Below are positions 1 to 7,460 of a stretch of 7,460 nt of DNA, in pieces. Both the position numbers and the translations under genes were made by a program. The DNA comes from Phycisphaerae bacterium (GTDB lineage Bacteria; Planctomycetota; Phycisphaerae; UBA1845; UTPLA1), in NCBI GenBank assembly GCA_016935885.1, contig JAFGQA010000053.1, forward strand, positions 1 to 7,460, written 5' to 3'. How positions within the stretch are numbered: the stretch's first letter is position 1; each line of letters opens with the position of its first letter. The notes beneath the pieces were generated by a model. It was not told the DNA's origin. It searched no databases and saw only the letters and a program-made list of their open reading frames with translations.

Positions 1-2004
1 ATCAAACGCACGTCCGCGACGTACCCGAACGGCGTGAGCGAGAGCCGGACGTATGACACTCTCAAGCGCCTGACAAATCTCGTGTACACGTCCGACACGG
101 GCACGCTGCTTTGGGTCCGCTACGGGTTCGACAACGGCGACCGGCGGACAGGCGAAATCTGGAACAATGGCCGAAATGTCAGCTACGGCTATGACCGGGC
201 TTATCAACTCCTGAGTGGTGCCAGCACGGCAAGGCCGAGCGACAACGCTTTCTATCTGTACGACAAGGCCGGGAACCCGCTTCGGCGCACAGAAATGGGG
301 TTGACGGCCGACTACACGTTCAACGGCCTCAATCAGTTCACCAGCGGCACGTGGACCGGCAAGCTGACCGTAGCGGGCGAAGCGAACTACGCGGCGGGGA
401 CGGTGACGGTCAACGGCGTCGTCGGCCAGCTTTTCTCGGACCGGAGTTTCGAGGCGAGCAATGTCACGGTTTCGGTGGGAAGCAATCTGCTCACGGCTAT
501 CTATACCGGCCCCGCGTTCACGAACACGGCGATGACCGCGACCAGTAAGGTCAGCGTGACGGTCGGGAATCCCGTGTTCGGGTACGACGCGAACGGCAAT
601 CTTACGAACGACGCGGAGTTTACGTACTTCTACGACCTCGCCAACCGGCTGACGAACGCGGTCAACAAATCCACAGGTCTGAGCGTGCTCTCCGCACGAT
701 ACGACGGTCTCGGGCGGCGCGTGGAGGTCACGCGGAACGGCACGAATGTGGAGCGCTACGTCTATCTCCCAGGATCATTCCTCGTGCTGGCTGTGCTCGA
801 CGGGTCGAGCCAGATCAAAGAAGTCTGGTCGAGAGGCCCGGACCAGAGCGGTGGGCTCGACGGCGCGGGCGGAATCGGCGGCATCCTGTCCGTTTCCACG
901 AACATTGGTACGGCAGTTGCGTCGAAGTACTTCCACGCCGACGCGGTCGGTAACGTCCTCCTCGTCACGAGTTCCGGGGGCCAGCAAATCGCACAGTATC
1001 GGTTCTCACCGTTTGGGAAACTCGTGGGTCAGGTCGGCGACTATCAGCCGCGCTTTGCGTTCAGCAGCAAGGAGGTTGACCCGCAGACAGGGTTGATTCT
1101 ATACGGTTTGCGCTATCTGAGTCCGGCGTGTGGCTCGTGGCTCTCCCGCGACCCGGCAGGAGAAGCCGATGATGCGAATCTCTACTCGTTTGTCAGGCGA
1201 GAACCTCTAACCAGCGTTGATTCGTGGGGCCTTCAAACTCGTGTTCGGGGTGCCGCAGAGACGCAGGTCAATCGCGACTACGATCTCCTTCGCAATAGCG
1301 AAGCATACCTCAGAGCTGCCGACACCCGTTTCAGGCAAAACATAGCCCGCGCCCCGGGTGCGCCCGAAGGTCTTCAGAACGAGGTGCAGCGCGCCCTGCG
1401 GGATCTCGAAACCCCAGTTCTTCGTCAAGGAGGAAACCGCTTTCGGCTCTACGGGATTCGTGCGCGCGCGAACATTGAGACAGCGCAGCGGTTGGACGAA
1501 CTCTCCAACATGCTTGGGTTGTACTGTGCTCCCGTGTCTGGAGGGAAACCAACAGCCTGCCCAACGCGCGCCGAGCTTGAGCAAAGGCTGGAGGCGATCG
1601 CCGACACGGGGCTGCGCGAAGCGATGCGGCGATCGCTGCTCGGCACGCCGGAAACAACAGCGCTCAGCCCCTACCGCAGAACACGTGCCGGCGAGGCATA
1701 CCCTCGCTTCGAATCCTCGAAGGTTCCGTCTAGGATCACCTCCGAAGGCGGCGTGCTACCGGAGACCTTCGCAGGCGGAAGCGCAAGGGATTCATCACTC
1801 ACCTCGCCAGAGGCGATTGCAGGCTACAATCTTCCACGTCCTGACTTGGCTCGGGATATCCGCTTCGACCTCAATCCTCCAGAAGGCACGTGGATTATTG
1901 GGCCGCGTCCGGTCCAAGGTGGTCCGCTGAGTGAAGTCCTTTTCCCATTAGGTGCTCCTCCCGGCACCGCTTCGGGCCCCTATCCGGTGACCTGTCCACC
2001 ATAG
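1..2004 (+). CDS. Rhs/YD-repeat protein with variable C-terminal tip, 5' partial
   Basis: The frame is open from base 1, so this is the C-terminal 667 residues of a larger protein; the GTG at 34 is not a real start. Degenerate YD repeats are visible (GYDANGNLTN, RYDGLGRRVEV), followed by the Rhs-associated core with LSRDPAGE at residues 381-388, an NLYSFV block, and VDSWGL at 406-411 where most relatives have a DPxGL sequence. That junction normally marks the end of the Rhs cage and the self-cleavage site that releases the tip. Residues 412-667 form the variable tip: a charged, helix-rich part, then a compact part with GGVLPETFA (583-591), EVLFP (645-649) and a proline-rich tail. I do not firmly recognise the tip; the last 100 residues loosely recall Rhs tips proposed to be ADP-ribosyltransferases. 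A beta-rich, Thr/Val-rich insert lies around residues 120-190. By family knowledge such proteins are secreted or surface polymorphic toxins. The Rhs identity is sure, the toxin activity is inferred. Confidence 0.93.
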   Translation: MKRTSATYPNGVSESRTYDTLKRLTNLVYTSDTGTLLWVRYGFDNGDRRTGEIWNNGRNVSYGYDRAYQLLSGASTARPSDNAFYLYDKAGNPLRRTEMGLTADYTFNGLNQFTSGTWTGKLTVAGEANYAAGTVTVNGVVGQLFSDRSFEASNVTVSVGSNLLTAIYTGPAFTNTAMTATSKVSVTVGNPVFGYDANGNLTNDAEFTYFYDLANRLTNAVNKSTGLSVLSARYDGLGRRVEVTRNGTNVERYVYLPGSFLVLAVLDGSSQIKEVWSRGPDQSGGLDGAGGIGGILSVSTNIGTAVASKYFHADAVGNVLLVTSSGGQQIAQYRFSPFGKLVGQVGDYQPRFAFSSKEVDPQTGLILYGLRYLSPACGSWLSRDPAGEADDANLYSFVRREPLTSVDSWGLQTRVRGAAETQVNRDYDLLRNSEAYLRAADTRFRQNIARAPGAPEGLQNEVQRALRDLETPVLRQGGNRFRLYGIRARANIETAQRLDELSNMLGLYCAPVSGGKPTACPTRAELEQRLEAIADTGLREAMRRSLLGTPETTALSPYRRTRAGEAYPRFESSKVPSRITSEGGVLPETFAGGSARDSSLTSPEAIAGYNLPRPDLARDIRFDLNPPEGTWIIGPRPVQGGPLSEVLFPLGAPPGTASGPYPVTCPP

Positions 2005-2008
2005 GAGG
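2003..2008 (+). promoter_or_regulatory. Ribosome binding site AGGAGG of the 77-residue gene
   Basis: A perfect AGGAGG lies 10 bases before the ATG at 2019 and overlaps the last two bases of the Rhs stop codon. The overlap suggests translational coupling of the small gene to the Rhs gene and fixes the start of the small gene. Confidence 0.75.
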
Positions 2009-2018
2009 CAGCAAGAAC

Positions 2019-2252
2019 ATGAAACCACTACCTAGACACATCCAGCAGTTGTTGCTGTCTGAAGGTGAAACGGGCATGGGGTACCAAGTCGGCGACGTTA
2101 CGCTGAGGAACGGTGAAGTTATCAAGGATGTTGTGTTCATTCAGAGCGGCTTGATAGCCTCGGTTGGCGGATCTGAAGAAATTCCATTTGAGCCCGAAGA
2201 GATTGCGTCGGTTCACCTGACGCACAACAAAGCGGCCGTTCGCAAGAAGTAG
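2019..2252 (+). CDS. Small protein, candidate immunity partner of the Rhs tip
   Basis: A 77-residue soluble protein with no signal peptide or membrane segment. It opens with a short helix (PRHIQQLLLSEGETGMGYQ), followed by alternating hydrophobic strands (VGDVTLRNGEVI, VVFIQSGLIASV) and an acidic IPFEPEEIASVHLTH segment, suggesting a small beta-barrel or sheet fold. It starts 14 bases after the Rhs stop behind an AGGAGG site. In polymorphic toxin loci the gene directly after the toxin tip usually encodes its immunity protein, and proteins with this MKxLPxHIQ/GETGMGYQ opening are, from memory, recurrent neighbours of Rhs genes. The immunity role is inferred from position; I cannot name the family. 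An alternative is a small accessory protein unrelated to toxicity. Confidence 0.8.
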   Translation: MKPLPRHIQQLLLSEGETGMGYQVGDVTLRNGEVIKDVVFIQSGLIASVGGSEEIPFEPEEIASVHLTHNKAAVRKK

Positions 2253-2292
2253 CTCGACAGGGGCGAAGGCGCGAAGAAACAGGCGGGCGTTC

Positions 2293-2685
2293 TTGAAATC
2301 GAGACTCGTCATCGGTGCGCTGACCCTCTTGGGTTGCGGGTTGGTTGCGGGCGTGTTCTTGCCTTCGTTCATGGCCCCGATCAACAAACGTGCTGCCCGG
2401 AGCCAACTCGGCAGGCAGGAGCTCCGTGAGCTGCACAGCCAACTGGTTGCCTACCGGCAAGATCACCACGGCCGACTCCCTGCGTCGCTGGATGACGTTC
2501 TTCGCGAAACAGAGTACTTGAGGGACGTCGAACCACGCAGCCGCGCCGATATTCTGGATCGCATGTCGTATGCGCCGGCGGTGGCGACGTCGGGTCCGGT
2601 TATATGGGCAGCCTTCAAGTGTACGGACTCGGAAACGCTCTATCTCATGGAGGACGGCACTATTACCAATGTACCTGCTAGGTAG
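2293..2685 (+). CDS. Pseudopilin-like or membrane-anchored small protein
   Basis: A 130-residue protein read from TTG, the first plausible start in this frame after the preceding gene; no good ribosome binding site is seen, so the start is tentative. Residues 5-27 are a strong hydrophobic segment behind a basic N-terminus (K2, R4). An LLGC at 12-15 resembles a lipobox, but the hydrophobic run continues past the cysteine, which favours a membrane helix. The following region (residues 43-70) has an ELHSQLVAYRQDHHGRLPASLDDV pattern similar to the helix after the hydrophobic stem of type II secretion pseudopilins of the GspG kind, where a Y..DHG.YP..L pattern recurs. The classical prepilin cleavage motif (G followed by FTLIE) is absent, so it is not a canonical pseudopilin. 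The C-terminus has a beta-hairpin-like LYLMEDGTITNV. Function unknown. Confidence 0.68.
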   Translation: MKSRLVIGALTLLGCGLVAGVFLPSFMAPINKRAARSQLGRQELRELHSQLVAYRQDHHGRLPASLDDVLRETEYLRDVEPRSRADILDRMSYAPAVATSGPVIWAAFKCTDSETLYLMEDGTITNVPAR

Positions 2686-2740
2686 CAGAGGCGCACGCGA
2701 TCCAACCGAGTTGCCGTCACGCGAAGCCATGAGGCGTACG

Positions 2741-2980
2741 ATGAATCGTTGGTCTAGCGCGGCGATTGCGTCCTTGATCCTCAGTGTCGCGGGAGTTTTT
2801 CCTCTCACCTTCTTCGGGTTCATCCCGGCTGCCATTCTTGGGCACATTGCCCTGCATCGTATCGCGGCCTCTGAGGGGCGGCTCAAGGGACGGAAGCTTG
2901 CGATGACTTCCCTAGGCATCGCTTACACCGGTATCGTCCTCTACACAATCTTGATGCTGGTTCCCATGATGAGCAACTGA
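2741..2980 (+). CDS. DUF4190-like two-helix membrane protein
   Basis: A 79-residue protein made of two hydrophobic segments (about residues 7-33 and 54-76) joined by GHIALHRIAASEGRLKGRKLA, a linker typical of DUF4190-type proteins, in which GHIAL and a GRGLA-like motif connect the helices. I chose the ATG at 2741 because GAGG at 2731-2734 sits six bases before it; an in-frame ATG at 2729 would add four residues. A longer open frame extends up to 2570, but its extra sequence is an arginine-rich shadow of the preceding gene. It lies 55 bases after the pseudopilin-like gene on the same strand and may be cotranscribed. Family function is unknown; a link to the Rhs toxin is not supported beyond proximity. 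Confidence 0.72.
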   Translation: MNRWSSAAIASLILSVAGVFPLTFFGFIPAAILGHIALHRIAASEGRLKGRKLAMTSLGIAYTGIVLYTILMLVPMMSN

Positions 2981-3075
2981 CTGGCATTCCCGAGAGTGAG
3001 AATCGAGCGAGGATGGCCAGCGAGCGTAGCGGCACGTATCCGTGGTCAGGACGCCCGAGTGGAGCCCCGGCCACA

Positions 3076-3933
3076 TTACCCCGACTCGATCACGGTCTTG
3101 AACCGCCCGAGCACCTCGGCATGGTTCGTCTCCAAGTAGGCCTCGATCTCCGGAATCGAAATCATCTTCCTGACATGGAACACGAGCTTCAGCAGGTCCG
3201 CCGAGTACTGGCGATACAGACAGGAGTAGAAGTCATGCTGTCTCTGCGCGTGATCCAGGCGCGCCATCATGTCGCGCTTTCGGTCCCCGTCATCCGCCCA
3301 TGCCTGGCGCTGCGGCTTGCTCTTGTTCCGCTGTGACGCCGGCGTCTGAATGACCAGCGCCCGGCAGAACGCGGGCGAAAAGTCGCCGACGTTCGTCATC
3401 TCCTTCAGTATTTCAACCTGCCGCTCATGCGTGACCCGCAGCAGCTCACGGGCGCACGCCTTGCTGACGACATTCTCTTTGAACGCCGCGACCACGTCCG
3501 GGTGCAACTGCTTGATGAGGGTCGGCACCAGCCGCGACTTGATGGACTTCATGCCGAACGTCCGCGCGATGGTCGGCTCGTCGATCGTTTCAAGGGACTT
3601 CCTCAGCATCCGGATCTCCTGATAGGCGGAGAGCCTGTTCACATTCCGGTTGAACGTGTACGCCTGCTTGTCCTTGTAGACCAGACACGGAACCGTCCGT
3701 ATCCCGAGTTCCTTGCAGGCAGTGTACCGGAGAAACCCGTCCAGAATCACGTAGCCCCCGTTCTCGGGGAAGACGCTCAGCGGCTCGACCAGGCCGATTG
3801 CCTGAACGCTGGCCATGATCTTCCGGAAGCCCGCATTCTTGGCCAGATTGACCTGCCTCTCGTTGAGCGGTGTCAGTTGTTCCAGGTCAATGTCCCGACC
3901 GTCCACATCCAGACTTTGCGCGCCGTTTGCCAT
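3076..3933 (-). CDS. ParB/RepB-like DNA-binding protein (second ParB)
   Basis: A 285-residue protein with a ParB N-terminal domain at about residues 14-100: an early DLEQLTPLNER strand-turn, a SVQAIGLVEPLSVF stretch equivalent to box I, and DGFLRYTACKELG (65-77), which matches the DGxxRxxA nucleotide-pocket motif in its RepB-like form. The usual ENxQR motif is replaced by NRNVNRLS (95-102). Residues from about 103 onward (LRKSLETIDEPTIARTFGMK, then VVAAFKENVVSKACARELLRV) resemble the RepB plasmid-partition C-terminal domain, with a putative helix-turn-helix at about 115-135. The tail is basic, then helical, and may dimerise. It is the last gene of the recombinase cluster, 18 bases after the first ParB gene. 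A GGAAGG sits 12 bases before the ATG, a rather long spacing. Without ParA a true partition role is unlikely; site-specific DNA binding that serves the recombinase is a reasonable inference. Confidence 0.88.
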   Translation of the reverse strand: MANGAQSLDVDGRDIDLEQLTPLNERQVNLAKNAGFRKIMASVQAIGLVEPLSVFPENGGYVILDGFLRYTACKELGIRTVPCLVYKDKQAYTFNRNVNRLSAYQEIRMLRKSLETIDEPTIARTFGMKSIKSRLVPTLIKQLHPDVVAAFKENVVSKACARELLRVTHERQVEILKEMTNVGDFSPAFCRALVIQTPASQRNKSKPQRQAWADDGDRKRDMMARLDHAQRQHDFYSCLYRQYSADLLKLVFHVRKMISIPEIEAYLETNHAEVLGRFKTVIESG

Positions 3934-3951
3934 GTCGCGTGTTCGCCTTCC

Positions 3952-4842
3952 TCACGTTGTGTATTTCCCTGTCAGCACAGGACGTTCCGCCATGCCGTGT
4001 TGACCGAGCAGAGCGACCAGTCTCTCGTCCTTCCAAAGCATATTGAGGCCTTCCAGCAGAGTCAGTAGCCGGTTCTCCTTGCTCTGACTCTCCCGCACGA
4101 ATCCCTCCCTCTTCATCGTTGCCTCGGCAATGTCCCGCTTCAAATCCTGGAGCGTGTAGGTCGGCTTCGGCAGCGGACCGCGACGCGGTTGCTTCCCCCG
4201 GTTGAGGCGAAGCTCGATCATGTTCCTGACACGGTTCGTGTTCGCGCTGTCGATGATGCCCGAGTCAAACGCGTCCATAAGCACCTGCTGGATGGTGTCG
4301 CTCGATGACTTCGCCACGGCGATCGCGAACGAGATGGAGAACATGCCCTGTTCAACGCCCGTGATCAACCGCTCTTCGCCCATCTCCACCAGCCGGATGT
4401 AGTCAGCCACCTCGTGCTCGGGTTTCCCCACAATCTGGCTGATCTTGGAGAGGGGCAGGCCCGCATCGCACATCCGCTTCATCTCCCGCGCGAACCACAT
4501 GGTGTTTGGCGGCACGCGAGCAATGTTCTCGACGAGCGAGTAGAGCAGCGCCGTCTTCCGGTCGCAGTCCACGACCTCCGCGGGAATCTCGGTCCGGCCC
4601 AGCGACTTGTATGCCAGAAACCGCCCCTCGCCGCAGACGAGTTCGTATTTGCCCCCGTCCGCCCGGTGCCGATCATTGACCAGGATGGGCTTGAGCAACC
4701 CGACGGAATCGATGCTGCGGATATTGTCCTCGAACTGCTGCTTGTCCCTGTTGCGGGGGTTCAGAACCGTGATCTCCGCCAGGGGGATCATGCGGAACCG
4801 ACGGTCCGACATCGGGACGATCTGGGCTGTGAGGTCCGCCAT
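3952..4842 (-). CDS. ParB-family protein with intact nucleotide-pocket motifs
   Basis: A 296-residue protein in the order ParB N-terminal domain, helix-turn-helix domain, helical tail. RMIPLAEITVLNPRNRD (17-33) is the typical opening; IDSVGLLKPILV (44-55) is box I, GEGRFLAYKSLG (71-82) is box II, and ENIAR (105-109) the phosphate-contact motif. In ParB proteins these residues form a CTP-binding clamp. A helix-turn-helix is likely at about 129-151 (LPLSKISQIVGKPEHEVADYI). The tail from about 215 is basic then helical (LTLLEGLNMLW), possibly for dimerisation. The ATG at 4842 is chosen over the upstream TTG at 4872, because it has AGGAGA six bases upstream and the TTG would overlap the recombinase gene. 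It begins 10 bases after the recombinase stop, so the two are coupled. No partner ATPase is visible. CTP binding is inferred from motif conservation. Confidence 0.92.
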   Translation of the reverse strand: MADLTAQIVPMSDRRFRMIPLAEITVLNPRNRDKQQFEDNIRSIDSVGLLKPILVNDRHRADGGKYELVCGEGRFLAYKSLGRTEIPAEVVDCDRKTALLYSLVENIARVPPNTMWFAREMKRMCDAGLPLSKISQIVGKPEHEVADYIRLVEMGEERLITGVEQGMFSISFAIAVAKSSSDTIQQVLMDAFDSGIIDSANTNRVRNMIELRLNRGKQPRRGPLPKPTYTLQDLKRDIAEATMKREGFVRESQSKENRLLTLLEGLNMLWKDERLVALLGQHGMAERPVLTGKYTT

Positions 4843-4848
4843 TCCGAG

Positions 4849-4854
4849 TCTCCT
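4849..4854 (-). promoter_or_regulatory. Ribosome binding site AGGAGA overlapping the recombinase stop
   Basis: AGGAGA on the minus strand lies six bases before the ATG at 4842 and shares two bases with the recombinase stop codon (4853-4855). It decides the start of the first ParB gene and implies coupled translation of recombinase and ParB. Confidence 0.75.
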
Positions 4855-6340
4855 ATCTTCGCAATTCCTCAAGCAGTTCCGCGAGCGAGTACGAGTACAG
4901 GGTAGTGGCGGAACTGGTGGCCGTGTGTATCCTGACCCCGCGGTCGCATAGCACGCGGGGAAACACCAGATACCCCAGAACTTCCAAGTCGCGCGGGCAT
5001 GACAGCGGCACCCCGATGGTCAAATCCACCTCCCGCCGCGTGTCGGGATGGAAGACCCAACACGCCTCGTACCCTCGCGGGATCGGCACAGCGGGCTGAA
5101 TCGTCAGGCTGAAGTAGTTGTCCACGACGAAGAAGTCGTCGAACTGCTCGACGTCGGCGGCCACCCGCCGTATGTCCGACAGGATTGCCTCGCGCCGCGC
5201 CTCTATCGCGTGACGGAATATCGCTTGATAGGCGAGATCGAAGCCGCGGAAGCGGTGAACGTACGTCGCCGGCGAGGGCATGTCCTTACCGGCTGCCACC
5301 AGTTTGTGGCTGACGATGCCATACCGCTCGTACAGATCCCTGAGCTTCTCCACCATGCCCGGCCCGGAGTACTTGTACAGGCGCGCCTCGTCGCGCTCAC
5401 GCAGGAGGTCCCGCGCCCGGTCGAAGACAGCACGGGGTACCACCGCCTCAAACGCGTCCTCTGCACGAATCCAGTCGCTCGCGGGATTGTGGTGGCTCCT
5501 CGACTTCATCTTCTGGGAGGTCTTGTTCCAGACCATCGCGCCGGCGTATATCTCGTTGCCCAGGATGGCCCGCACGGCGCCCCTCGACCATTGCCCGCCG
5601 CCAGGGGCGGGACGACCCATTTCATTCAGCCGCTCGGCAATGGCTTCAGGCATGACACCCCCGCTCGCCAACTGATTGAAGATGAACCGGACCGCTTCGA
5701 TTTCTGCTGGATCGCCCGGGCCGAGAGTCACGCGCTGGTTGTGGATGGCTTTGTGCTCACCCCGCGCCAGGACTTGAAGCGGGTTGCGTTTCTCGTCCAG
5801 CAAGATTCGGCACATCCCGTAGGGGGCGCTACCACCCGCCCAATACCCGCCGCCGGCGATTTTCGCACATCCCTTCCACACCTTGCCGGAAAGCTCCCGG
5901 CTGTATGACGCAGCCCGGTACCTCTCTATGCTCAAATGCAGACCGTGCAGCAGATCGTTCTCTTTCGGGAACCCGATCGTCGTGAACACCACCTGCTTCC
6001 CGTGTTGCAGGCACAGCCCGGTGTAGTAGGCCGAGAGGTCCGTCTCCTGAAAACGGCCCCAGCGCGAAACGTCGAGTACAAGCACAAGCTCGAAGTTCGC
6101 CTTCCCGCCAACGACGTACTCATGCAACATCTCGTTGAAGCTGTCCCGTCCTTCGGCGGACAGACCCGACTTCCCGCGATCCGCAAACTCCCGGATAATT
6201 TCGATGCCGTTGTCAGCGGCGAACTTTCTGACCTGATCCTGCTGGATCTCCACGCTGTTCTCCTGACGATCCTGCGCCGAATGCCGGTAATAGGCGACAG
6301 CCCGCCTCGTCGGAGTCTTTTTGGCCTTCGTCCACAGCAT
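4853..6340 (-). CDS. Large serine recombinase (resolvase/integrase family)
   Basis: A 495-residue site-specific recombinase. The catalytic resolvase domain spans about residues 13-155: AYYRHS puts the nucleophile at S21 with R19 beside it, followed by the RQENSVEIQ block; DVSRWGR (90-96) supplies the conserved D, S and two arginines; SREL lies at 147-150. The 'Recombinase' DNA-binding domain follows at about 165-275, from GYWAGGSAPYG to the AVRAILGNEIYAG motif. The third part is unusual: there is no CxxC zinc ribbon or long coiled coil. Residues 328-376 (LRDLYERYGIVSHKLV, PSPATYVHRF) instead resemble a small helical DNA-binding repeat like those attached to some HNH endonucleases, followed by a C-terminal domain of about 120 residues I do not recognise. 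All core catalytic residues are present, so it is probably active. GGAAGGG eight bases before the ATG supports the start. It leads the recombinase-ParB-ParB operon. Confidence 0.95.
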   Translation of the reverse strand: MLWTKAKKTPTRRAVAYYRHSAQDRQENSVEIQQDQVRKFAADNGIEIIREFADRGKSGLSAEGRDSFNEMLHEYVVGGKANFELVLVLDVSRWGRFQETDLSAYYTGLCLQHGKQVVFTTIGFPKENDLLHGLHLSIERYRAASYSRELSGKVWKGCAKIAGGGYWAGGSAPYGMCRILLDEKRNPLQVLARGEHKAIHNQRVTLGPGDPAEIEAVRFIFNQLASGGVMPEAIAERLNEMGRPAPGGGQWSRGAVRAILGNEIYAGAMVWNKTSQKMKSRSHHNPASDWIRAEDAFEAVVPRAVFDRARDLLRERDEARLYKYSGPGMVEKLRDLYERYGIVSHKLVAAGKDMPSPATYVHRFRGFDLAYQAIFRHAIEARREAILSDIRRVAADVEQFDDFFVVDNYFSLTIQPAVPIPRGYEACWVFHPDTRREVDLTIGVPLSCPRDLEVLGYLVFPRVLCDRGVRIHTATSSATTLYSYSLAELLEELRR

Positions 6341-6348
6341 TGGTTCAG

Positions 6349-6355
6349 CCCTTCC
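6349..6355 (-). promoter_or_regulatory. Ribosome binding site GGAAGGG of the recombinase
   Basis: A purine-rich GGAAGGG on the minus strand ends eight bases before the recombinase ATG. It supports the ATG at 6340, although a perfect AGGAGG is lacking. Confidence 0.5.
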
Positions 6356-6362
6356 GAATCCC

Positions 6363-6380
6363 CCGCACCAAACTGTGCGG
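6363..6380. repeat. 6-bp inverted repeat upstream of the recombinase
   Basis: CCGCAC and GTGCGG form a perfect six-base stem around a six-base CAAACT loop, 23 bases upstream of the recombinase ATG. No T-tract follows on either strand, so it does not look like a terminator. It could be an operator or a recombinase half-site pair, or chance in GC-rich DNA. Confidence 0.35.
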
Positions 6381-6446
6381 CCCGTTCGACAGAAAGCGTC
6401 TCGTCTTCATTGGGGCCGGTACGCTGCCAGACCAAAGGCCCAAGCA

Positions 6447-6463
6447 ACACAGACAAGTTGTGT
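6447..6463. repeat. 5-bp inverted repeat between zinc-ribbon and recombinase genes
   Basis: ACACA and TGTGT flank a seven-base loop in the 136-base gap between the zinc-ribbon gene and the recombinase. With the GC stem at 6363 it makes two short dyads in one spacer. The gap holds no convincing -35/-10 promoter pair on the minus strand. Confidence 0.25.
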
Positions 6464-6476
6464 GGACCCCAGGGTG

Positions 6477-7010
6477 CTATCGCCAGTGACAGGCGTACCG
6501 CCCAAAGCAGGTGACGCGGAAGTCATGAACAAGGCGCTGCGTGCAAATAGCCAGGTTCTGCCACGCGGTGGACAACCTTCGCCACAGGTCACGCGCTGTC
6601 ACGCCCATCCCTGGAAGACCAACTCCCGGTCGGACGATGAGGCGCAACCGGCGGCTCCACTTCACGAAGCGATTCCAGTATCGCCGAAGCAGATCCCTGT
6701 GGCGCTCAACGTCGAGATGGCCCTCAGCGGCGCAGAATGCGCGCTCTATGGTGACATTGCTCACGAAGTGATACGGCTGGACGAAGGCTGGCAGACAACT
6801 GACCGTCGTGCCGCATCCCCGGCACCTGAAGCGACGCACGCCGATCCGGACCGCCTGCCCACGGGTACCCGTCGTGTTGCGGGAGTAGTAGCCGTGCGCC
6901 TTCAGTCCGCCGCTACACCGAGGACACGGGCTGGGCGGACGCACGCGAGTGTGAGAACCGCGCTCGATGTACGTTTCCGGCTGCTCATTCACAACGATAA
7001 TGGTTTGCAT
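6477..7010 (-). CDS. DUF6431-like zinc-ribbon DNA-binding protein
   Basis: A 177-residue protein with a treble or ribbon zinc site: CPRC (C29, C32) and CRGC (C63, C66), separated by HGYYSR and an RFRC strand, as in zinc ribbons at the N-terminus of ISL3-like transposases and in DUF6431 proteins. The opening MQTIIVVNEQPETYIERG also fits DUF6431. After the ribbon comes a basic helical region (RHRDLLRRYWNRFVKWSRRLR) rich in R and W, probably DNA-binding. No DDE catalytic domain is present, and the length matches stand-alone family members, so I read it as complete rather than a transposase remnant. The ATG at 7010 is chosen because it starts the recognisable domain; the in-frame starts at 7103 and 7064 add unrelated residues, and none has a good ribosome binding site. 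It lies 136 bases upstream of the recombinase on the same strand and may be part of the same element. Its function is unknown. Confidence 0.8.
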   Translation of the reverse strand: MQTIIVVNEQPETYIERGSHTRVRPPSPCPRCSGGLKAHGYYSRNTTGTRGQAVRIGVRRFRCRGCGTTVSCLPAFVQPYHFVSNVTIERAFCAAEGHLDVERHRDLLRRYWNRFVKWSRRLRLIVRPGVGLPGMGVTARDLWRRLSTAWQNLAICTQRLVHDFRVTCFGRYACHWR

Positions 7011-7163
7011 CGGAGAACGGTGTACGCGTTGCGCGTTTTCGACAAGGCCAATACTGCACACCATAGTTCCGCCGCCATGCCGCGACCAACTCGCGCTCGT
7101 CACGAAGCCCTAACCCGTCGCACATCGTTTCCGAACGTTTTGTCTTGAGTCCGCACGGCGTCT

Positions 7164-7214
7164 CTGTACAGTCACAGGTCCAGTTCATGGACCCGCTGCC
7201 AAGGGAGGCAGACG
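7164..7214. repeat. Cluster of short inverted repeats in the divergent spacer
   Basis: Three dyads follow one another: CTGTACAG (7164-7171, a perfect palindrome), GGTCCA-GTTCA-TGGACC (7177-7193), and CTGCC-AAGGGA-GGCAG (7196-7211). CGTCT at 7159 and AGACG at 7210 further bracket the group. The cluster lies between two divergent genes, the usual place of operators or attachment sites. Function is unproven. Confidence 0.45.
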
Positions 7215-7265
7215 TTGACCCTCTGACTGGCACGGCAACCCCTATGAAACGTACCGAATACGGCG

Positions 7266-7460
7266 ATGTCTGCGCACAGCAGAAAGCGATTTGCCAGCAT
7301 CGAGGCCCTGCGCCGATTCCGGCCAGAGACCTTGGTGGAGTTTCTTCTTCGCTTCCCTGACCACCTCGCCGCGCACGGCTTGCGGATCACTCCGAAGACC
7401 TCTGAGTCTGACCTCGACTACCAGAAGCTGGTGCCTCTGTGCATGGACATCAGCCCGGAC
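7266..7460 (+). CDS. Unknown protein, N-terminal part, 3' partial
   Basis: An open frame from ATG at 7266 runs to the last base, giving 65 residues without a stop. The sequence looks like a real protein: a basic start (MSAHSRKRF), then an amphipathic helical stretch with ALRRFRPETLVEFLLRFPDH and HGLRITP, followed by an acidic DLDYQKLV segment, with no signal peptide or membrane helix. A TGA stands in frame at 7245 and no other start codon intervenes, so the ATG is the only candidate start. No strong ribosome binding site is seen. It is transcribed away from the zinc-ribbon gene, with 255 bases between them. I recognise no domain. It may be another cargo gene of the element or the flanking host gene. 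Confidence 0.6.
   Translation, partial: MSAHSRKRFASIEALRRFRPETLVEFLLRFPDHLAAHGLRITPKTSESDLDYQKLVPLCMDISPD

Follow-up and report, generated by a model that had tools for sequence, protein, structure and literature searches.

A stretch of 7,460 nucleotides from a Phycisphaerae bacterium (assembly GCA_016935885.1, contig JAFGQA010000053.1, forward strand positions 1 to 7,460), in the following called the window, carries a serine recombinase gene followed by two different genes for ParB-family proteins, ParB1 and ParB2. An earlier note on this DNA had described the trio as a tight operon in which the ribosome-binding site of ParB1 lies over the stop codon of the recombinase gene. Both statements were confirmed: three minus-strand reading frames are separated by gaps of 10 and 18 bases, and AGGAG (4854-4850) covers the TAG. 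The features are:

4853..6340, minus strand: serine recombinase of 495 amino acids (aa), with a resolvase catalytic domain, PF07508 and about 180 C-terminal residues (317-495)
3952..4842, minus strand: ParB1, 296 aa, or 306 aa with an alternative TTG start at 4872; ParB/Noc fold
3076..3933, minus strand: ParB2, 285 aa; ParB fold, diverged, with the motif DGxxR in its pocket
4843..4855, minus strand: recombinase stop TAG overlapped by the ParB1 ribosome-binding site AGGAG, as read from the sequence
3934..3951, minus strand: gap of 18 bases between ParB1 and ParB2, with the sequence GGAAGG (3951-3946) as ribosome-binding site before ParB2
6341..6476, minus strand: upstream region of the recombinase, without a divergent small regulator gene, unlike most proteobacterial relatives

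The recombinase of the window matched PF00239 (3.7e-15) and PF07508 (5.2e-22), and ParB1 matched PF02195 (2.6e-12) and the Noc family TIGR04285 (2e-16). The match of ParB2 to PF02195 (5.2e-5, 23.7 bits) was under the Pfam cut-off of 26.3, its match to TIGR04285 (1.5e-9) backed the assignment to ParB. A Pfam scan of eight reading frames in the window revealed neither ParA nor replication families, in agreement with the earlier observation that ParA and a replication initiator are absent from it.

Loci for comparison were collected with ParB2 relatives as bait, resulting in 80 genome loci (the best 80 of at least 555 relatives) and 50 virus-contig loci. Fifteen further loci were taken from plasmid and phage records, 12 opened via recombinase matches and three via ParB2 matches. 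All three genes were called in 118 loci, comprising 71 of the 80 genome loci, 32 of the 50 virus loci, 14 of the 15 record loci and the window. They were strictly consecutive in 110 of the 118, with a 4-base overlap as the commonest intergenic spacing (-4; 58 and 43 loci). The three-gene order thus recurs across genomes, contradicting the alternative that these genes are rarely found together. The trio was held by 12 of 12 record loci opened from recombinase matches (12 of the 40 matches listed), and 33 of 34 full-length recombinase matches in 30 trio-bearing genomes adjoined a ParB2 match; the exception, G012:C140, lies 742 bases from a contig start. Many of the incomplete loci are cut at contig ends, while L007, L029, L046, L062 and L089 appear decayed or frame-broken. 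The recombinase is split into two pieces in two genomes (G016, G028), and orphan or broken ParB2 pieces were present at G001:C17, G025:C11:626954 and in G010. Three shorter recombinase matches had no C-terminal part: G005:C42 and G009:C17, with no ParB2 match on the contig, and G006:C46:15837, directly behind a trio. A second serine recombinase of another subfamily follows directly downstream of the trio in L022 (10948-13029) and at G006:C46:15837-16934.

Pairwise distances across 102 loci were correlated for all protein pairs (ParB1-ParB2 0.914, recombinase-ParB1 0.818, recombinase-ParB2 0.843; Mantel p 0.001): the three proteins co-evolve. By record titles, the trio is present in at least five phyla, the titles naming Kiritimatiellota/Pontiella, Verrucomicrobia, Planctomycetales, Alphaproteobacteria, Acidobacteria, Geobacter and Desulfovibrio. 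Within these groups its presence is sporadic, with strong matches in 3 of 29 genomes of Pontiella's family (7 of 29 with weak ones), in 4 of 288 genomes of Pontiella's class and in 21 of 385 Alphaproteobacteria. The trio is a conserved unit of near-obligate partners, far beyond chance. A record named as a Lactiplantibacillus plantarum plasmid (L004, NZ_CP110863.1) encodes proteins that look alphaproteobacterial, a possible contamination. The parts belong to known families. No description of a recombinase-ParB-ParB operon was found among the open PMC papers listed, judged by title and opening of the abstract, with subscription papers and preprints outside this scope, and it is absent from the available text of PMC12704722, PMC12839542 and PMC6536676.

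ParB clamps are known as segregation proteins. Both ParBs of the trio share the ParB fold with the cytidine triphosphate (CTP)-hydrolysing clamps ParB, Noc and KorB, and ParB1 retains GxGR and ENxxR-like motifs. They differ from these clamps in having no conserved ParA, in being two diverged paralogues encoded together and in having a recombinase as partner. The nucleotide motifs CG[EQ]GR and ENx[AH]R of ParB1 were present in 118 of 118 loci. ParB2 carries DGxxR in 115 and DGHxR in 100 of the 118, the variant of the window being DGFLR. Compared with solved ParB/Noc structures, a profile of ParB1 relatives had a best match of 3e-21 and a profile of ParB2 relatives one of 1.1e-11. The predicted ParB2 model (mean predicted local distance difference test score, pLDDT, 82; predicted template modelling score, pTM, 0.38) matched CTP-bound ParB and Noc with an E-value of 1.8e-9; its low template modelling (TM) scores are consistent with a flexible chain and, taken singly, not strong. 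By structure matches and motifs, both proteins have the ParB fold and a nucleotide pocket. In ParB2 this pocket is instead of the DGHxR type, which we take to resemble that of SerK and sulfiredoxin. The latter two are named as ATP-binding members of the ParB fold in the accessible text of PMC12704722. ParB1 and ParB2 may bind different nucleotides. A third, larger ParB-like gene (37-48 bits against the ParB1 profile) is located downstream of ParB2 in L049, L065 and L070. In Caulobacteraceae, the last 10-15 codons of ParB2 diverge even between copies that are otherwise 96% identical.

Large serine recombinases are known as self-sufficient enzymes with their own DNA-reading domain in the C-terminal part, where a zinc ribbon, accompanied by a coiled coil, reads the site. 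The trio recombinase likewise has the resolvase and PF07508 domains of SPbeta YokA, phiC31, Bxb1 and TP901-1, both present in 35 of 35 recombinases scanned, and its catalytic serine was invariant in two alignments of 22 and 35 rows. It differs from these enzymes by a C-terminus of about 180 residues without the zinc-ribbon family and by the constant ParB pair. Zinc-ribbon Pfam families were matched by none of the 35 (E ≤ 1e-3), HTH_62 by six and a homing-endonuclease repeat by two, and 93 of 118 recombinases have at most two cysteines in the final 180 residues. Sequence matches in the PDB stop near residue 315. The predicted model (pLDDT 88, pTM 0.64) aligned with the SPbeta integrase YokA over 320 columns at a TM-score of 0.43; the C-terminal 180 or so residues form a helical and a beta part without a nameable match. 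The Ccr enzymes of the staphylococcal cassette chromosome SCCmec (CcrA, CcrB, CcrC) are serine recombinases tied to defence cargo. The recombinase of the window matches CcrB weakly, its 28.7 bits in NCBIfam being far under the family cut-off of 900, and to our knowledge SCC has no ParB partners.

ParA was searched with PF13614 (E ≤ 1e-10) in 20 trio genomes over 100 kb on the contig of the trio, several contigs being shorter. None of the 20 had a ParA within this distance, all 20 had one elsewhere; the nearest, 130 kb off in G025, lies beside a different ParB. On plasmids replicon genes were closer: ParA at 7.6 kb and RepA at 5.5 kb from the trio in L239, ParA at 12.9 kb in L145 and replication genes at 6.5 kb in L142. 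The other record stretches read contained no annotated ParA. As they are not conserved with the trio, the replicon genes of L239, L145 and L142 are taken as plasmid backbone, outside the unit. No shared palindrome emerged as a parS candidate. Two trio-less plasmids with the Sphingobium backbone (L243, L244) encode a ParA-type ATPase plus ParB, therefore the partition system belongs to that backbone. The earlier question of whether ParA ever occurs nearby thus has a divided answer, with none near the trio in the 20 genomes and L239 and L145 as plasmid cases. The ParB fold, the similarity to plasmid RepB, the occurrence on plasmids and the replicon genes 5-13 kb away on three of them (L142, L145, L239) would suit a role in carrier maintenance, by multimer resolution or by a partition-like stabilisation of plasmids or excised circles that needs no ParA. 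However, the trio also resides on chromosomes and prophages, has no ParA nearby in genomes and shares plasmids with a ParA of their own (L145, L239); the trio-less relatives L243 and L244 have a ParA-type ATPase plus ParB. Carrier maintenance is accordingly quite unlikely. A general role in partition or plasmid stability was rejected on the missing ParA in genomes and the ParA that plasmid backbones have themselves. The trio is no ordinary DNA-segregation system.

As accessory cargo, the trio rides in the end regions of prophages, in hot spots of plasmids and within defence islands. Another integrase was present in 17 of the 26 trio-bearing virus records, a tyrosine integrase in eight and another serine recombinase in nine; tyrosine integrases were counted by family searches, phmmer having under-detected them. 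This company further sets the trio recombinase apart from ordinary large serine recombinases. In nine virus records the other integrase lies within about 5.5 kb of the opposite record end, and in G613, G620, G624, G633 and G634 one lies no more than a few kb from the trio. G610, G611, G612, G615 and G616 have a trio whose recombinase is truncated by the record end or missing; the distances there, read around a circle, do not suit the integrase found being that of the trio. In at least 5 of 20 genomes (G003, G007, G011, G015, G024) a tyrosine integrase was located within 10 kb of a trio copy. By reading, L047 has a serine integrase beside a transfer RNA gene (tRNA-Ser) and L060 a serine integrase relic. 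Prophages similar to Paracoccus aminovorans DNA present the order tRNA-Met, Fic-like gene, divergent gene, trio and convergent tail-like genes (Fic and tail by reading). One gap in a backbone common to several Sphingobium plasmids is occupied variously by the trio segment, by ars genes, by the two together or by nhaA. In Roseomonas, two plasmids share, amid different surroundings, a segment of 7.4 kb at 99.99% identity that includes the trio and a restriction gene.

These carriers bear on the proposal that the recombinase is the integrase of its carrier, with the ParBs marking attachment sites or acting as directionality factors. That virus records start or end at ParB2 had favoured the trio as a general prophage integrase; this reading was dropped with the other integrases in 17 of 26 records. 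The accessory hot spot occupied in the Sphingobium plasmids likewise speaks against carrier integration as a general role. The nine virus records in which no second integrase was found, possibly fragments, are weak evidence for it, because virus records can be fragments. The available text of PMC6536676 reports 16 Paracoccus prophages with a serine recombinase, possibly of the trio type, as integration module, among them a cluster of 11 for which no site is identified. Taken with the second integrases, an integrase of the own carrier with ParB-type directionality factors is unlikely.

Of 47 tRNA genes near the trio, 32 belong to virus locus L090, where they are predicted in a row. tRNA-Met and tRNA-Ser recur near L116, L124, L048, L060, L076, L047, L062 and L085. 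Structured RNA was absent from the insertion neighbourhood of seven Caulobacteraceae loci, and eight other sources contained one signal recognition particle RNA and two tRNAs. A PHROGs scan of the downstream sample matched 90 families; the commonest, matched by 3 of the 110 proteins, was one of integrases.

Several observations concern the movement of the segment itself. Pontiella sulfatireligans has two trio copies that agree over 4531 bp at 96.7% identity and lie in unrelated surroundings; a third copy is truncated to the last 669 bp (right end, 94%). The segment can therefore be duplicated or relocated, whether through its own activity or otherwise. Rhizobium and Aminobacter plasmids share 4.2 kb around the trio at 92.7% and a further stretch of 2.1 kb at 79%. 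Across 299 genomes of Caulobacteraceae, the left edges of the seven next-closest copies (75-96% identity) are no more than 27 bases apart, at the divergent gene's stop codon, and their right edges fall 33-46 bases short of the ParB2 stop of the query; more distant copies have other edges, and edges at low identity mean little. A dispersed repeat around AACATCATTTCATAGG (L011, L013, L204), with 24 exact copies of its 16-mer in the Pontiella genome, touches the right end of the trio copies there and blurs it.

The chief rival reading is a self-mobile element, in which the recombinase moves just the trio segment of 3.6-5.6 kb, its small neighbour gene included, with ends selected or bridged by the ParBs. 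The Pontiella copies, the Rhizobium and Aminobacter stretch, the Caulobacter and Brevundimonas copies (92-96% identity) whose start lies close to the stop of the divergent gene, and the sporadic distribution all agree with self-movement. However, 30 genomes hold just one or two strong copies each, and in seven copies terminal inverted repeats did not exceed the best of 200 shuffles. Flanking direct repeats were found in 15 of 110 loci (random control regions 6 of 19), without a clear excess, and inverted ones in 6 of 110 (E 1e-4; controls 5 of 19). The strongest direct repeats were gene fragments or duplicated small genes, such as Roseomonas integrase ends and L123. In L123 a gene of 69 aa flanks the trio segment (5154-5363, 10902-11111), one copy starting 40 bases past ParB2. 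Random insertion would also leave the recurring position at prophage ends, convergent with tail-like genes, unexpected. We regard self-movement as a tentative possibility, somewhat doubtful as it stands.

The inverted repeats bear equally on a DNA-inversion switch controlling neighbouring genes. According to the accessible text of PMC12529663, the serine recombinase PinQ lowers adsorption of phage T2 by inverting cryptic prophage DNA. PinQ is like the trio recombinase a serine recombinase, and affects phage infection; unlike the trio it acts by inversion of cryptic prophage DNA, and ParB partners are not mentioned in that part of the paper (PMC12529663). Against a switch of this kind, the inverted pairs of the window (25 listed of 39), the longest 34 bases at 71%, include no long near-perfect pair bracketing the trio, and flanking inverted repeats are as rare as given above. 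An inversion switch is very improbable.

Upstream of the recombinase, a divergent gene was present in 91 of the 110 loci having an upstream gene. A single small protein family was common to 50 loci, directly upstream in 47, and 4 of 10 divergent small genes scanned matched a Pfam DNA-binding family above cut-off (one HTH_24, three HTH_DeoR). The Kiritimatiellota loci L009-L011 have a co-directional upstream gene instead, read as sigma-region-4-like. Before the recombinase, L009, L010, L011 and L013 share the stretch CAAAAGTGCCTRTATTTNTCCC, which at up to three mismatches gave five matches in three genomes, four of them at trio copies. In the window neither gene type occurs within 1.1 kb; a frame with DUF6431 (PF20020, 43.5 bits; 6477-7103, minus strand), missed by the gene caller, lies upstream and is co-directional with the trio. 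Its weak ISL3 transposase similarity is consistent with a transposase relic, or it may be a clade-specific partner. At the other side, positions 1-2004 of the plus strand contain the closing part of a large gene of the Rhs family (RHS core model TIGR03696) with a variable C-terminal part, directly followed by a reading frame of 77 aa (2019-2252), resembling a polymorphic-toxin type arrangement.

Defence genes were searched with PADLOC 2.0.0 (E ≤ 1e-12) in samples of 110 proteins each, drawn from 192 upstream, 231 downstream, 288 random and 176 integrase-neighbour proteins of 54 and 60 trio loci and of 19 and 20 control regions. Per 110 proteins, 199 families were matched upstream and 189 downstream of the trio, 21 in random regions and 14 beside tyrosine integrases of the same genomes; these figures count families and not proteins, and one protein can match many. 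The models of the upstream sample include HmaA/HmaB, QatC/QatD, BilD, DrmD, MkoB and BrxHI/HII, one protein each, among 25 families listed. Annotated neighbours include type I restriction together with AbiE in L139 and with Abi in L144. L145 has McrBC nearby, L002 and L143 each a restriction endonuclease, and L008 a methyltransferase associated with phosphorothioation. By reading of sequences, a phosphorothioation-like set is near the trio in L141, BREX genes in L041 and a ubiquitin-like operon in L083. Judged by the integrase control, this strong enrichment suggests a closer association with defence genes for the trio than for tyrosine integrases of these genomes.

We read the trio as a ParB-assisted recombinase unit carried as accessory cargo and probably acting in conflicts between mobile elements, with a probability of roughly one half. 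ParB1 and ParB2, probably as a heterodimer, would bind nucleotide and clamp on a specific DNA site. The clamp would deliver the recombinase to this site or synapse it there, so that the ParB pair would replace the site reading given by the zinc ribbon in ordinary large serine recombinases. The unit may then act on the DNA of competing mobile elements, or rearrange local DNA in response, rather than integrate its own carrier. Of the mobile-element design put forward in the earlier note, the guidance of a recombinase by ParBs survives and the integration of the carrier fails as a general role. An anti-mobile-element immune system in the strict sense, in which the nucleotide-switched clamp of two ParBs recognises invading DNA and the recombinase cuts or rearranges it, is a possibility we hold with reserve.

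Several points weigh against this preferred reading. No defence gene was found in the 7.5-kb window. Genes for transposition, integrases or conjugation surround L001, L006, L140 and L142, where annotation shows no defence gene close by. The trio proteins themselves gave no PADLOC match for the recombinase and only weak type II methyltransferase matches for ParB1 (0.0038) and ParB2 (0.0003). The family counts of PADLOC can be inflated, as one protein may match many models. Recombinases often adjoin defence genes (PMC12529663, accessible text), and for this reason the association alone is no proof. The Pontiella copies are equally compatible with self-movement. The ParB2 bait and the restriction to the best 80 relatives limit the sampling of loci. 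A loose YxRxS motif was present in just 98 of the 118 called recombinases, trimmed starts or split genes may explain the rest. Rare single-chain fusions of ParB1 with ParB2 (P0241, P0246), of the recombinase with ParB1 (P0273, P0274, P0277) and in L004 support the unit but could be frame errors, because the trio genes overlap by 4 bases.

If the preferred reading of a ParB-assisted recombinase is true, the trio would represent a natural recombinase that leaves the choice of its site to a nucleotide-switched clamp, a separable targeting part of interest to builders of recombinase tools. The strong tie to defence islands brings the idea of recombination as immunity within reach of direct tests, and a larger step would be possible if recombination proves to be immunity.

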